Assembly (NCBI RefSeq): GCF_001403635.1
Contig: NZ_LN879468.1
Coordinates: 1,364,001-1,428,000, forward strand
Origin: Clostridium massiliamazoniense
GTDB taxonomy: Bacteria; Bacillota; Clostridia; Clostridiales; Clostridiaceae
Length of the DNA stretch: 64,000 nt
Reading direction: 5' to 3'
Shown here: positions 6,870 to 27,127 of the stretch, piece by piece
Layout: each line of letters opens with the position of its first letter
How positions within the stretch are numbered: the stretch's first letter is position 1
The notes under the pieces: model-generated
The model's database searches: none
Told to the model about the DNA's origin: nothing
The model's input: the letters and a program-made list of their open reading frames with translations, nothing else
Translations under genes and position numbers: made by a program

Positions 6870-8258
6870 ATGAATTTCGTAAACAAACTTGGCGACTGGC
6901 TTGAAAAGCACGTTATGCCTATCGCTACAGTTATTGGTGGTCAAAGGCACTTAGCTGCCTTAAGAGATGGTTTTATAGCTACTCTTGCTGTTAACCTTAT
7001 TGGTGCAATGGCATCTTTAATTAACAACGTTTTAATAAGAGACTGGTCTCTTATCGGGGAACAATTAAACAAAATTACCTTCTATAAAGAATCAATACAA
7101 CCTACTTTAAGTAAGTATATTGAGCCTGTATTATTAAGAATTAATTTTGGTACACTAGCAATTATAACAATCTTTTTAGTTATTAGTATTTCATATAATT
7201 TAGCTAAATCATACGAAGTTGATGGAATGGGTGCTGCTTTATCTTCTACTGCTTCATATTTTGTTATTTTAGCAATCTCTAGAGTAACTGAAGGTGCTGA
7301 TGCTTCTGGAGCTGTAGATGCTGCTGGAAAAGCTATAATGTTAAAAATTAAAACTGATGGTGCATTAATTCCATTTAGTGATTTAGGTTCAACAGCTATG
7401 TTCACTGGTATTATTGTAGCTCTTATTGCTACTGAAATCTTTGTAAAGGTTACTAAAGCTGGTTGGGTTATAAAAATGCCAGACCAAGTACCTCCTGCTG
7501 TATCAAAAGCCTTTTCCGCTATACTTCCTGCTGGATTATCTGTAATAGTTTTTGCTATAATAAGCGTAATTTTCACTGATTTCATAGGAACTCCATTTAA
7601 AGACTTCATAGAGCAAATGATTCAAAATCCATTAATAAAACTTGGACAATCTCCATTTACTTATATATTTATGGTTTTATTAGCTCAATTATTATGGTTC
7701 TTTGGTATTCATGGTTCAAACATGACAGATCCAGCTATGAACACAATGTATAAACCACCACTATATCAAAATATAGATGCCTTCAACAAAGGTGGAGCTG
7801 CTGCTGTTCCTAATGTATTAACAAGAAACTTCTTAGATGTTTATGCTATGCATGGTGGATCTGGTGCTACTTTAGGTTTAGTTATAGCTATTTATTTATT
7901 CTCTAAGAAACAAGAATACAAAGAGCTTGCTAAACTTGCTACTGCTCCTGGTTTATTCCAAATCAACGAGCCTGTAATATTCGGTTTACCAATGGTATTA
8001 AACCCATTAATGTTCATACCATTTGTATTTACTCCAGCTATCTGTGTTACTATAGCTTATATATTTACCGCAATAATACCGTTTGCTGATAAGATTGCTG
8101 CTGAAACAGCATGGACAACACCTCCAGTACTAAGTGCCTTCTTAGCTACTAACGGTGACTGGAAAGCTGCTGTTCTTGCATTAGGTACATTCTTATTATC
8201 AATAGTTATATACGCTCCATTCGTTATTGCTGCTAATAAAATGACTGACGAAGCATAA
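6870..8258 (+). CDS. PTS sugar transporter IIC component, lactose/cellobiose family
   Basis: The product has 462 residues and is a polytopic membrane permease of the lactose/cellobiose type. The start MNFVNKLGDWLEKHVMPIA is typical of CelB-like IIC. The conserved FGIHGSN and INEPVIFGLP segments belong to the substrate-translocation region. I chose the ATG at 6870 because the AGGGGG site lies eight bases before it. A TTG two codons earlier is too close. It forms a two-gene unit with the IIB gene and is closed by a strong terminator built from a dispersed repeat. Confidence 0.93.
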   Translation: MNFVNKLGDWLEKHVMPIATVIGGQRHLAALRDGFIATLAVNLIGAMASLINNVLIRDWSLIGEQLNKITFYKESIQPTLSKYIEPVLLRINFGTLAIITIFLVISISYNLAKSYEVDGMGAALSSTASYFVILAISRVTEGADASGAVDAAGKAIMLKIKTDGALIPFSDLGSTAMFTGIIVALIATEIFVKVTKAGWVIKMPDQVPPAVSKAFSAILPAGLSVIVFAIISVIFTDFIGTPFKDFIEQMIQNPLIKLGQSPFTYIFMVLLAQLLWFFGIHGSNMTDPAMNTMYKPPLYQNIDAFNKGGAAAVPNVLTRNFLDVYAMHGGSGATLGLVIAIYLFSKKQEYKELAKLATAPGLFQINEPVIFGLPMVLNPLMFIPFVFTPAICVTIAYIFTAIIPFADKIAAETAWTTPPVLSAFLATNGDWKAAVLALGTFLLSIVIYAPFVIAANKMTDEA

Positions 8259-11383: not shown

Positions 11384-11416
11384 CATAGTTAACTCATTAA
11401 TTAAACTACTCATTGT

Positions 11417-11531
11417 TACTCTTCTTTCATCCAGACTTTAACTGTCGGCTTCGGAATCTCACCGAATCCACTATTTCTAGTTCGCGGGCTTTACCGCCGG
11501 TGGGGACTTACACCCCGCCCTGAAGATATGA
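11417..11531 (-). promoter_or_regulatory. FMN (RFN) riboswitch
   Basis: The minus strand carries the conserved RFN core: TCTTCAGGGCGGGGTG, then the CCCCACCGGCGGT region, then AGCCCGCGA, GATTCGGTGAGATTCCG, AGCCGACAGT and GGATGAAAGAAGA. The paired ends form P1. It binds flavin mononucleotide and acts on the attenuator at 11362-11383. Confidence 0.97.
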
Positions 11532-18218: not shown

Positions 18219-18758
18219 TTATTCATCTTCAGCTTCTATTAAACCATAATGTCCATCTTTTCTCTTATAAACTACACTTATTTCATTTGTATCTCCATCT
18301 CTAAATACAAAGAAATTATGACCTATTAATTCCATTTGAAGTACCGCTTCATCTGGTAACATTGGTTTAACATCAAATTTTTTAGTTTTAACTATTTTTC
18401 TATCTTCTACTCTATCTTCCTCATCTATAGCTACTTCACTATCTATTTGAGCAAATTTTAGAGAATCATATTCAAGTTTTTTTAATTTAGTTTTATGTTT
18501 TCTAATTTGACCTTCAAGTTTTTCTTCAACTAAATCTAATGATTTATACATATTTTCAGTTGACTCTTCACCTCTTAAAAAGATCCCACTAAATGGTATT
18601 ATAACCTCGACTATTTGTCTGTTCTTCTCTACTTTTAGCGTTACTTTGGCTTCGACATTCTCATTAAAATATTTTTCTAACTTTGATATCTTCTTTTCTA
18701 CTGTATCTTTTAAAGCATCTGTTAATGTTATATTTCTTGCATGTATTTTTATTTTCAT
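18219..18758 (-). CDS. hpf: Ribosome hibernation-promoting factor, long form
   Basis: The protein has 180 residues. The N-terminal S30AE domain (IKIHARNITLTDALKDTVEKKISKLEKYF) binds the 30S decoding region. The C-terminal domain (VLQMELIGHNFFVFRDGDTNEISVVYKRKDGHYGLIE) mediates 70S dimerisation in long HPFs. It silences ribosomes in stationary phase and sporulation. The ATG at 18758 follows AAAGGGG by eight bases. A further ATG 18 bases upstream has no ribosome site. The gene is also called raiA/yfiA, and the structured RNA upstream is the raiA motif. Confidence 0.96.
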   Translation of the reverse strand: MKIKIHARNITLTDALKDTVEKKISKLEKYFNENVEAKVTLKVEKNRQIVEVIIPFSGIFLRGEESTENMYKSLDLVEEKLEGQIRKHKTKLKKLEYDSLKFAQIDSEVAIDEEDRVEDRKIVKTKKFDVKPMLPDEAVLQMELIGHNFFVFRDGDTNEISVVYKRKDGHYGLIEAEDE

Positions 18759-18969
18759 ATGCCCAGCCCCTTTCATAAAACATTTAAAAAAATTTTTTAA
18801 ATATTTTCTATGATTTAATTTTACTACTTCTAGGAGAAATAAACAAACTAAAAAGAGAATAAATTTTCTGAAAATTTGTAATCCTTTACTTGTTAGCTTT
18901 CTTTTCCTCTATTTTATTATATGATTCTAAACTTGACTTTTTTACTTTCTTGGGTATTTTTTCATAAAA

Positions 18970-19001
18970 AAAGTTGTTAGCCTAAACTAACAACTTTTTT
19001 T
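18970..19001 (-). terminator. Terminator of the raiA-motif RNA
   Basis: On the minus strand AAAAAAAGTTGTTAG and its inverse, followed by TTTTTTT, form a strong intrinsic terminator immediately after the closing stem of the RNA. Confidence 0.88.
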
Positions 19002-19200
19002 GTACTAGCTGACCTGGTCTTTGACCCCACACTCGCCTGCTGGAGCTTTTGCTACCCGGTATTATCCTCTCACTACTAACCCTCTCAGTTTACTGGCAGG
19101 ACTTACTTCTAAGCCGCACCATGCTCATTAAAACTTTGTTTAACTTACGTGGATCGTTTTGCCTGCGACTGGCATCGACTTTCAACCACAGACCTAGCAC
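19002..19200 (-). ncRNA. raiA RNA: raiA-motif structured non-coding RNA
   Basis: This about 200-base intergenic block is much richer in G and C than its surroundings. It is framed by a closing helix: GTGCTAG at the 5' end pairs with CTAGTAC at the 3' end. It has its own promoter and its own terminator and lies directly upstream of the hpf/raiA gene on the same strand. This matches the raiA motif, a conserved clostridial RNA found upstream of raiA and linked to sporulation and aggregation in Clostridium acetobutylicum. Position and architecture support the call. I could not run a covariance model. 6S RNA and RNase P RNA were considered and fit less well. Only short spurious frames cross it. 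Confidence 0.8.
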
Positions 19201-19207
19201 ATATATT

Positions 19208-19235
19208 ATTATATACTACTTTTCACTACAGTCAA
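19208..19235 (-). promoter_or_regulatory. Promoter of the raiA-motif RNA
   Basis: On the minus strand TTGACT (19235-19230) and TATAAT (19213-19208) are separated by 16 bases, placing the start near 19200 at the closing stem. It overlaps the 3' end of comF. Confidence 0.8.
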
Positions 19236-19889
19236 CAAAAAAACATCAATATTATAATATTTTTTTAAAATTTTTGTTGAACTAAGCAAAGTTGCACCAC
19301 TTGTTACTACATCATCTAACAATAAAATTCTTTTATTTTCTAAATATAAATCATTTATCTCTATATAAAAAGCATCCTTTATATTTTCTAACCTCTCACT
19401 TTTACATAATGTTTTTTGTTCCTTTACTCCTTCTCTTTTACCTAATATTTGAATAACTTCTTTTCCTGTTTTCTCAGAAAGCTTTTTAGCTAAATACTCA
19501 CATTGATTAAACTCTCTTTTTTTTAAAGCACTTTTATTCATAGGAATATAGGTTATATAATCAAAGTCTATTTTTTCATCTACTACTTTTCTATATAATA
19601 AATGAGAAAAAAACTCACCAACATTAAAATTCTTTTTATATTTAAATTCCGAAACAAGCTTTTTTATCATATGATTGTAATACACTATAGAATAACATTT
19701 ATTATTATCTAAAAGAAAAGGTTCTCCCACATACTTCAATTGTGTTTTACATTGATCACAAAGAAAGTACTCACTCTCTTCTACTCCACAATTTAAACAG
19801 TTAGTACAACTAGGATATATAATTTCTAATAGACAATTAATTAAATATTTTATTATATATCTCACTCCCAAACAATTTTGTTGAAACAT
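19209..19889 (-). CDS. comF: ComF family phosphoribosyltransferase-like protein
   Basis: The protein has 226 residues. Two N-terminal CxxC pairs (CTNCLNCG and CDQC) form a probable zinc site. The C-terminal half holds the PRPP-loop-like motif RILLLDDVVTSGATLLSS of type I phosphoribosyltransferases. ComF-family proteins act in DNA uptake for transformation in some species. The start is uncertain: the ATG at 19889 overlaps the upstream gene by 28 bases, and a GGGAG site lies inside the frame. It follows recD2 and a ComFA-like gene, which resembles a comFA-comFC pair. Confidence 0.88.
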   Translation of the reverse strand: MFQQNCLGVRYIIKYLINCLLEIIYPSCTNCLNCGVEESEYFLCDQCKTQLKYVGEPFLLDNNKCYSIVYYNHMIKKLVSEFKYKKNFNVGEFFSHLLYRKVVDEKIDFDYITYIPMNKSALKKREFNQCEYLAKKLSEKTGKEVIQILGKREGVKEQKTLCKSERLENIKDAFYIEINDLYLENKRILLLDDVVTSGATLLSSTKILKKYYNIDVFLLTVVKSSI

Positions 19890-26008: not shown

Positions 26009-26026
26009 AGTATTTAAAGCGCTCCC

Positions 26027-26124
26027 CTTATCTTGCAGATTTACACTGCAGGAATTGGCACCTTGGTATAAAATACTGGTTGCCGGGTTTCATTGGGCCC
26101 TGTCCCTCCACCTCTCTTGATAAG
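26027..26124 (-). promoter_or_regulatory. SAM-I (S-box) riboswitch
   Basis: The minus strand carries CTTATCAAGAGAGGTGGAGG, then the GCCC..ATGAAACCCGGCAACC core, GGTGCCAATTCCTGC and a final GATAAG pairing with the first CTTATC to make P1. It controls metK in response to S-adenosylmethionine. Confidence 0.97.
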
Positions 26125-26211
26125 AGTTTTATTTTTTAACATCTTTTCAATATTCTTTTTTATCTTTTTAACTAAATTAACTAAAATTTTACTTTTACAA
26201 ATGTAAAATTA

Positions 26212-26238: not shown

Positions 26239-26324
26239 TGGTGGTGGGAGAAGGATTCGAACCTTCGAAGTCGTCCGACAACAGATTTACAGTCTGCCCC
26301 CTTTGGCCACTCGGGAACCCCACC
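26239..26324 (-). tRNA. trnY: tRNA-Tyr (GTA), copy nearest the terminator
   Basis: A class II tRNA with a long variable arm. Acceptor GGTGGGG pairs with TCCCACC, the anticodon loop contains GTA, and the 3' CCA is encoded. Last of ten tRNAs in one transcript. Confidence 0.96.
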
Positions 26325-26329
26325 TTATA

Positions 26330-26405
26330 TGGAGCTGACAATCGGAATCGAACCGATAACCTGCTGATTACAAGTCAGCTGCTCTGCCAATTGAGCCATG
26401 TCAGC
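26330..26405 (-). tRNA. trnT: tRNA-Thr (TGT)
   Basis: Acceptor GCTGACA pairs with TGTCAGC, the anticodon loop is CTTGTAA (TGT), and CCA is encoded. Five bases separate it from the next tRNA-Tyr. Confidence 0.96.
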
Positions 26406-26431
26406 ATATAAGTTAATATTTTATTTTAAAA

Positions 26432-26517
26432 TGGTGGTGGGAGAAGGATTCGAACCTTCGAAGTCGTCCGACAACAGATTTACAGTCTGCCCCCTTTGGC
26501 CACTCGGGAACCCCACC
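26432..26517 (-). tRNA. trnY: tRNA-Tyr (GTA)
   Basis: The sequence looks the same as the other tRNA-Tyr copies in the cluster; long variable arm, anticodon GTA, encoded CCA. Confidence 0.96.
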
Positions 26518-26523
26518 TTTTCA

Positions 26524-26599
26524 TGGAGCTGACAATCGGAATCGAACCGATAACCTGCTGATTACAAGTCAGCTGCTCTGCCAATTGAGCCATGTCAGC
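26524..26599 (-). tRNA. trnT: tRNA-Thr (TGT)
   Basis: Matches the other tRNA-Thr copies; anticodon TGT, encoded CCA. Confidence 0.96.
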
Positions 26600-26614
26600 A
26601 TATATTTTGTTTTA

Positions 26615-26690
26615 TGGTGGTCGCAACAGGGATCGAACCTGTGACCCCCTGCTTGTAAGGCAGGTGCTCTCCCAGCTGAGCTATGCGACC
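26615..26690 (-). tRNA. trnV: tRNA-Val (TAC)
   Basis: Acceptor GGTCGCA pairs with TGCGACC, the anticodon loop is CTTACAA (TAC), and CCA is encoded. Confidence 0.96.
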
Positions 26691-26694
26691 TTAT

Positions 26695-26780
26695 TGGTGG
26701 TGGGAGAAGGATTCGAACCTTCGAAGTCGTCCGACAACAGATTTACAGTCTGCCCCCTTTGGCCACTCGGGAACCCCACC
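26695..26780 (-). tRNA. trnY: tRNA-Tyr (GTA)
   Basis: Third of four matching tRNA-Tyr copies; anticodon GTA, encoded CCA. Confidence 0.96.
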
Positions 26781-26787
26781 TTTTTTA

Positions 26788-26863
26788 TGGAGCTGACAAT
26801 CGGAATCGAACCGATAACCTGCTGATTACAAGTCAGCTGCTCTGCCAATTGAGCCATGTCAGC
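26788..26863 (-). tRNA. trnT: tRNA-Thr (TGT)
   Basis: Third of four matching tRNA-Thr copies; anticodon TGT, encoded CCA. Confidence 0.96.
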
Positions 26864-26877
26864 ATATATTTGTTTTA

Positions 26878-26953
26878 TGGTGGTCGCAACAGGGATCGAA
26901 CCTGTGACCCCCTGCTTGTAAGGCAGGTGCTCTCCCAGCTGAGCTATGCGACC
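26878..26953 (-). tRNA. trnV: tRNA-Val (TAC)
   Basis: Second of two matching tRNA-Val copies; anticodon TAC, encoded CCA. Confidence 0.96.
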
Positions 26954-26957
26954 TTAT

Positions 26958-27043
26958 TGGTGGTGGGAGAAGGATTCGAACCTTCGAAGTCGTCCGACAA
27001 CAGATTTACAGTCTGCCCCCTTTGGCCACTCGGGAACCCCACC
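26958..27043 (-). tRNA. trnY: tRNA-Tyr (GTA)
   Basis: Promoter-side copy of the four tRNA-Tyr genes; anticodon GTA, encoded CCA. Confidence 0.96.
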
Positions 27044-27051
27044 TTTTTTTA

Positions 27052-27127
27052 TGGAGCTGACAATCGGAATCGAACCGATAACCTGCTGATTACAAGTCAG
27101 CTGCTCTGCCAATTGAGCCATGTCAGC
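27052..27127 (-). tRNA. trnT: tRNA-Thr (TGT), first in the transcript
   Basis: Anticodon TGT, encoded CCA. It lies about 50 bases after the predicted transcription start of the cluster. Confidence 0.96.

Follow-up and report, generated by a model that had tools for sequence, protein, structure and literature searches.

The noncoding block between a comF-like gene and hpf of Clostridium massiliamazoniense is, almost beyond doubt, a raiA (ModT) RNA, and it very likely represents a separate RNA that acts in trans. It was analyzed within a stretch of 64,000 nt, here called the window (assembly GCF_001403635.1, contig NZ_LN879468.1, positions 1,364,001 to 1,428,000). An initial annotation, made from the sequence alone, had placed a raiA-motif RNA at 19002–19200 and had proposed the Rfam raiA model as a check, with 6S RNA and RNase P RNA as competing families. 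In the covariance search, the raiA family RF03072 matched 19202..19000 on the minus strand over the full length of the model (1–209 of 209), with a score of 202.7 bits compared to a gathering cut-off of 101.3 and an E-value of 3.6e-52 (64 kb, 4227 families). No 6S or RNase P RNA scored above cut-off in the window in the same search, and thus the assignment holds. RF03072 was the sole family exceeding its gathering score in this stretch and gave the best of 14 Rfam matches in the window, the others being an FMN riboswitch, a SAM riboswitch, and 11 tRNA matches. The block had also been described as GC-richer, which agrees with a G+C content of 0.478 for the RNA compared to 0.289 for the window; 53 of 6380 segments of 203 nt are as G+C-rich. 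The RNA is an ordinary, full-length member of an already known family and differs from the known raiA RNAs only in its species-level sequence. As a side observation, the FMN riboswitch (11415–11531) and the SAM riboswitch (26025–26126) of the window are located on the minus strand and both exceed their cut-offs. Adjoining the SAM riboswitch is an array of ten tRNA genes in repeated units (26239–27127; 4 Tyr, 4 Thr, and 2 Val), which apparently arose by tandem duplication.

The sequence around the RNA suggests a transcription unit with a promoter and a terminator of its own. The promoter TTGACT-16-TATAAT, already noticed in the initial annotation, was located on the minus strand at 19235–19208 (−35 box TTGACT at 19230..19235, −10 box TATAAT at 19208..19213) and ends 5 nt before the RNA start. 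With 11 of 12 matching positions it is the best among 15 promoter-like sites in 2 kb, where shuffling expects 10.5 sites, and when the 50 nt preceding the RNA were shuffled 200 times, an equally good promoter arose once. The promoter does overlap the end of comF, as its −10 box overlaps the stop codon (19211–19209) of the comF-like gene (19209..19889, minus strand; named from its sequence), which lies upstream of the RNA and bears the RNA promoter in its 3' end. Behind the RNA, the strong terminator that had been described was found as an intrinsic hairpin at 18969..18998 (minus strand; stem AAAAGTTGTTAG / CTAACAACTTTT) with a T run ending at 18966. A stock terminator scan did not list this hairpin, probably because the A and T runs lengthen the stem. 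If transcription ends at the hairpin, the primary transcript would have a length of about 230–245 nt rather than 200 nt.

The window shows the gene order comF–raiA RNA–hpf, as in other Clostridium. As for published frequencies, the commonest neighbors of the RNA are comFC upstream (74%) and raiA (hpf) downstream (66%; PMC11706538, citing Soares), and synteny was judged no good guide for ModT (PMC11706538). The claim that the RNA lies directly upstream of hpf is right only with regard to the neighborhood: the ribosome hibernation factor gene hpf (the “raiA” gene; 18219..18776, minus strand; family name from the sequence) is the neighboring gene but not directly adjacent, as the listed ORF start is 223 nt and the probable start at Met7 (18758) 241 nt away from the end of the RNA. 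The hpf gene is 66% identical to the Clostridium tarantellae locus, which was the nearest one in a scan with one genome per species that reaches close relatives only.

Between the RNA terminator and hpf there is a perfect CodY-box palindrome, AATTTTCWGAAAATT (18862–18876); the sequence AATTTTCAGAAAATT behind the terminator is an exact copy of the CodY-box consensus. The window contains 2 CodY-box-like sites with up to 2 mismatches, compared to 2.6 in shuffles, and 0.005 exact copies are expected in 64 kb under a first-order model, so it is only the exactness that makes the match stand out. For a comparison between species, 22 of the 80 hpf loci from the one-genome-per-species scan were taken. 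A CodY box with at most 2 mismatches was present within 300 nt upstream of hpf in all 10 Clostridium loci tested, whereas the best match had at least 3 mismatches in all 12 other loci. A role of CodY in ribosome hibernation has been described for Staphylococcus aureus (PMC6256015). The exact box in front of hpf, the pattern in the tested Clostridium loci, and the S. aureus precedent suggest that hpf is probably under its own nutrient-linked control by CodY and that the RNA is a separate unit. The palindrome would then belong to the control of hpf and not of the RNA.

The closing stem, P3, and pk-1 of the RNA were assigned as follows (all on the minus strand). The frame GTGCTAG/CTAGTAC of the initial annotation corresponds to the closing stem P1, whereby the 5' arm (19194..19200) pairs with the 3' arm (19002..19008; read from the sequence) over 7 bp including one G-U. 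P3a is formed by GTCG (RNA 24–27; 19176..19179) and CGAT (RNA 47–50; 19153..19156), and P3b by GCC (RNA 30–32; 19171..19173) and GGC (RNA 40–42; 19161..19163). The P3 loop AGTCGCA (RNA 33–39; 19164..19170) is one strand of the pseudoknot pk-1 and pairs over 7 bp with the pk-loop TGCGGCT (RNA 85–91; 19112..19118), which follows G84. Thus, all 7 P3 pairs and all 7 pk-1 pairs are formed in the window RNA, and the numbering of the 5' half matches the cryo-EM structure (A28, A33, A43–A46, and G84; PMC11751092). Following our reading of the junction names in PMC11751092, CCAC (51–54) and GUGG near the 3' end would form a putative P4. All 47 sequences compared (28 full-length ones including the window and 19 short ones) show pairing of P3a and P3b, as counted by a script that picks among five loop lengths and is therefore slightly biased toward pairing. 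Three of the four P3a pairs vary on both sides (pair 1, G-C/A-U; pair 3, C-G/U-A in one sequence; pair 4, G-C/C-G), and in P3b pair 2 shows a two-sided change (C-G/U-A) in one sequence. A pk-1 of 6–7 bp is possible in all 28 full-length sequences. In two further loci (L120 and L121), a T run comes after the G+C-rich P1, so that the closing stem may double as a terminator there.

A natural short form of the RNA was found when RF03072 was searched in 249 genomes from the phylum of C. tarantellae. Matches were obtained in 24 genomes, 17 of them above and 7 below the cut-off, and the 7 sub-cut-off RNAs have a length of 113–120 nt, yet span the whole model; no other Rfam family matched at their loci at E-values up to 0.01. 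The order of these 7 genomes is represented by 22 genomes, of which 19 carry the short form, none has a match above the cut-off, and 3 have no match at all. The short RNAs (L113–L119 and L156–L167) are 110–121 nt long, are located at about 1501–1620 in most loci, and score 38.9–58.9 bits, which is below the Rfam cut-off of 101.3. Their homology is based on E-values of 4e-8 to 9e-14 per genome, end-to-end coverage of the model, common 5' and 3' sequences, and the P3 pairing. From the 5' end through about base 50, all 19 closely follow the full raiA sequence, and P1, the GAAA turn, P3a, and P3b are retained, whereas P6–P8, which make up about 40–45% of the RNA, are absent. A putative P4 stem reads UCCCUC/GAGGGK in 8 sequences and UCCCAG/YUGGGR in 11. 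One of its pairs shows a two-sided change throughout and a second one in 2 sequences (G-U in 9), while the outermost pair is mismatched in 2; the two types track two subgroups and therefore represent few independent events. The pk-1 core GCCG/CGGC is possible at the expected place in all 19 short forms. These pairs were counted by a script aimed at the expected pk strand, since two rows of the MAFFT alignment are shifted by one position there; the fifth pair reads C-G in 8, U-A in 2, and U-G in 4, and the remaining 5 have a mismatch. When the longest loop pairing was sought without such direction, it involved the expected pk-1 strand in 8 of the 19, an overlapping one in 2, and a strand elsewhere in 9. 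Thus, pk-1 is probable in the short form. RNAfold yielded inconsistent folds for the short RNA, as expected with a pseudoknot, and these were left unused. The survival of P1, P3, and a possible pk-1 core without P6–P8 points to these elements as the functional core. With respect to known variants, the window RNA belongs to the long type (variant 2) and differs from the short-P6 variant 1 of the same family (PMC11751092), in which the P6–P8 region is naturally shortened and which by eye is resembled by L133 and L134. The 110–121-nt form is shortened beyond variant 1, as no P6 was seen, and no mention of a raiA form without P6 was found in the consulted sections of PMC11706538, PMC11751092, PMC12286853, and PMC11477304.

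In several lineages other than Clostridium, the RNA precedes a zinc-finger gene. A gene product starting with MAFQDK follows the RNA in 19 of 19 short-form loci, and Pfam zf_Tbcl plus zf_Tbcl_2 were detected in this protein in all three loci tested. The arrangement includes long forms, as a comparison of positions in the 249 genomes gave a PF13451 gene after the RNA in 16 of 24 cases in all. A larger draw of 398 genomes from one phylum, which includes these 24 carriers, yielded 47 RF03072 matches, namely 36 above the cut-off, 10 short ones, and one divergent RNA of 259 nt. The latter (L186, 3001–3259; 50.4 bits) has conserved ends and a different middle and lies before a zinc-finger gene. A zinc-finger gene follows the RNA on the same strand in 27 of the 47 raiA genomes (16 called by Pfam position, 8 by tblastn, and 3 by the first codons only); these 27 leaders stem from few lineages, and the counts ignore kinship. 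In all 27, the ATG lies 32–40 nt and a GNGAGGG Shine–Dalgarno motif 15–24 nt after the RNA, and the terminator scan found no terminator within 100 nt after the RNA. Among the other 20 genomes, in one of which the locus is cut by a contig end (G336) and in another matched in part (G346), none shows the GNGAGGG motif and 9 show a terminator in the same scan. In a set extended by named Clostridium relatives and the window, a terminator was detected in 14 of the 19 loci that lack the zinc-finger gene, compared to 0 of the 16 loci that have it. Of the 26 testable leaders, 24 show a promoter of the form TTGCNN-17-TATAAT 9–15 nt upstream of the RNA, and the remaining two have a spacing of 16 and a TAGAAT box, respectively. 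Taken singly, the boxes are weak, as 0–41 of 200 shuffles were as good. A conserved anti-Shine–Dalgarno sequence in the RNA was not seen by eye across the leaders, and a search for PDB relatives of the zinc-finger protein gave none that was convincing (best E 0.06). The word “zinc” is absent from PMC11706538 and “zinc finger” from PMC12286853.

The two-domain zf_Tbcl protein was also considered as a universal partner of the RNA and rejected, as none of the 16 genomes in the named set that carry raiA had a PF23477 match, compared to 3 of the 26 genomes of this set overall. In C. tarantellae, three matches to relatives of the first zinc-finger domain were obtained. In the 249 genomes, PF13451 occurs in 19 of 24 raiA genomes compared to 144 of 225 others (p 0.18) and is missing from 5 of the 24, and PF23477 occurs in 18 of 24 compared to 134 of 225. 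Since the RNA does not always come with the two-domain protein, regulation of the zinc-finger gene in cis may be an extra role in some lineages and would not explain the RNA of Clostridium. It is conceivable, though on the doubtful side, that the raiA family as a whole has two modes, whereby in Clostridium it would act as a free, terminated RNA in trans and in several other lineages as a 5' leader that shares its promoter with the zinc-finger gene and has no terminator, controlling or bound by the zinc-finger product. The minimal form of 110–121 nt, with P1, a tight turn, P3, a P4-like stem, and probably pk-1, would then present that half of the RNA as the functional core.

The 3' end of the RNA gene looks like an attachment site of mobile elements. 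The hpf loci of C. zeae (L003) and of a Clostridium metagenome-assembled genome (MAG; L006) contain only the last 37–42 nt of raiA, and at another place in each of these genomes a complete raiA is located behind comF. In C. zeae, the whole RNA (12350–12554 of L188) and the remnant (about 1660–1700) have 35 identical bases, AGGCGAGTG...CTAGC, at a distance of 10,703 bp. Between the two copies lie a truncated tyrosine integrase adjoining the RNA, an IS3-type transposase, a phage lysozyme, and a prophage tail protein. In the MAG, the RNA (9338–9544 of L189) is followed by a head-on, full-length integrase ORF (PF00589; 8058–9248), beyond which an IrrE-type peptidase, a repressor, and antirepressors are encoded. 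Its remnant (680–716 of L006) has 35 bases in common with the whole copy, or 90 with one mismatch if the terminator is included; since it lies on a separate contig, the insertion in this genome is inferred. The remnant signature, allowing at most one mismatch, was detected in 3 of 206 genomes of the family, namely C. zeae, the MAG, and G609, and a search within 1.5 kb of the latter remnant (L193, 1501–1541) yielded no hpf and no related integrase. In a search with the raiA 3' end alone, no phage and one viral contig matched; this contig (L190, 8 kb) has the raiA 3' core at one end (16–43) and at the other end (7723–8018) an integrase stretch with 62% identity over 72 residues. Phages use tRNA and tmRNA genes as insertion sites. 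In the raiA case, the 3' end would similarly be supplied by the element itself, leaving the RNA whole, and insertions of this kind are what one would expect at an indispensable gene. The window itself contains no second copy of the RNA 3' end, and among literature titles none on raiA as attachment site was found. Carriage of the whole raiA by mobile elements was rejected, as a 281-nt region had no match in phages. Viral contigs contained no stretch with one exact raiA 5' pattern, and the only 2 of 72,556 records of a plasmid collection that matched raiA are of chromosome size (2.6 and 11.9 Mb).

In order to find out whether the RNA depends on c-di-GMP or sporulation, its distribution was compared to that of GGDEF and Spo0A in the 249 genomes, whereby incomplete assemblies can conceal genes and the statistics ignore kinship. 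No GGDEF match was obtained in 15 genomes, 4 of which carry raiA compared to 20 of 234 with GGDEF (p 0.044), and the direction of this difference is opposite to dependence. Spo0A_C is absent in 30 genomes, one of which carries raiA compared to 23 of 219 with it (p 0.33). Hence, 4 of the 24 carriers have no GGDEF match and 1 of 24 no Spo0A match, which calls for a more general target, and the c-di-GMP effect known from C. difficile is best read as indirect, given the raiA genomes without a GGDEF match. The order of a comF-like gene, raiA, and an hpf-like gene (named by eye) was also seen in the actinomycete Nonomuraea gerenzanensis (L155). Within the same family as the window organism, two Oceanirhabdus genomes (G014 and G015; L015 and L016) gave no raiA match and are possibly natural losses.

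The effect on sporulation and aggregation in Clostridium acetobutylicum, which the initial annotation had mentioned, is on record (Soares et al., 2024, as cited in PMC11706538 and PMC11751092). For C. difficile, ModT has been described to have a sigma-A promoter, two isoforms, and an abundance near that of housekeeping RNAs, to complement in trans, to alter c-di-GMP and sporulation, and to be present in many non-spore-forming bacteria as well (PMC11706538). Cryo-EM structures of raiA/ModT are available (PMC11751092; PMC12286853), and further raiA RNA literature exists (PMC11477304). The window RNA shares with the raiA/ModT RNAs of C. difficile and C. acetobutylicum the full-length model match, P3 and pk-1, and the comF–RNA–hpf order, and it is like ModT(L) in its sigma-A-type promoter and the terminator after the RNA. 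A difference is that in C. difficile a PTS-operon antiterminator gene is located downstream of the RNA, where the window has hpf (PMC11706538).

Taken together, we consider the following explanation as a whole rather probable. The raiA/ModT RNA gene would be transcribed alone from its own sigma-A-type promoter to its own terminator, giving a primary transcript of the length deduced above that is perhaps trimmed to about 205 nt, and the RNA would accumulate during growth and act in trans, while hpf would be controlled separately, probably by CodY. The mechanism is proposed tentatively: the RNA may be a rigid, protein-binding RNA, whose P1–P3–pk-1 core binds a widespread cellular component, and this binding might tune the exit from growth, with the effects on sporulation, aggregation, and c-di-GMP as downstream consequences. 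It is suggested by the survival of most of this core in the short form and by the published sedimentation and probing, in which C. difficile ModT sediments with protein and its DMS pattern changes upon deproteination (PMC11706538). The lifestyle proposed for the RNA would resemble that of 6S RNA, although no 6S family reached its cut-off in the window. 6S RNA itself is abundant, stable, and linked to growth phase.

The Rfam type label of RF03072, “Cis-reg; riboswitch,” counts against an RNA acting in trans and would suit a cis-acting leader of hpf, which is the next gene on the same strand. Such an hpf riboswitch is very improbable, since the terminator hairpin follows the RNA directly and the CodY box lies within the 223 nt in front of the listed hpf start; with this terminator and a separate hpf upstream region, an expression platform linking the RNA to hpf is not apparent, and the candidate was rejected. 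Moreover, in C. zeae a distance of 10.7 kb separates the whole RNA from the remnant next to hpf, and trans complementation has been published for two species (PMC11706538). A cis role would suit the lineages in which, in 27 of the 47 genomes, the RNA forms a leader without detected terminator. That the core function lies in a partnership with the zf_Tbcl plus zf_Tbcl_2 protein, with the RNA as autoregulatory leader or as one half of an RNP, would account for the distance of 32–40 nt to the ATG, the GNGAGGG motif, the lack of a detected terminator in all 27 leaders, and the promoter that is found in the same place in 26 of 26 testable leaders (TTGCNN-16/17-TAnAAT, each weak alone). It is nevertheless unlikely in view of the raiA genomes of the named set, which are devoid of PF23477, even though C. 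tarantellae has a first-domain relative, and of PF13451, which is missing from some carriers and not enriched among them; the similar PF23477 counts in the 249 genomes point the same way. A ribozyme that acts on other RNAs would fit the very compact three-dimensional fold with its strict conservation (PMC11751092) and the higher tRNA and 5S levels in the deletion mutant (PMC11706538). We regard it as quite unlikely, as no cleavage is reported in the consulted sections of these two papers and as the active site would have to sit in what remains after a whole order has lost P6–P8.

In some Gram-positive bacteria, the raiA RNA ranks with the most abundant structured RNAs. By itself, the copy in the window extends the raiA family by one species, and it is the comparison across genomes that narrows the question of its biochemical function. 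Judging from this comparison, GGDEF enzymes, Spo0A, P6–P8, and the two-domain zinc-finger protein do not seem to be needed for the function in every species. The half-size form lends itself to compact constructs and the leader arrangement to a reporter-style assay, and the insertions that spare the RNA are a sign of selection.
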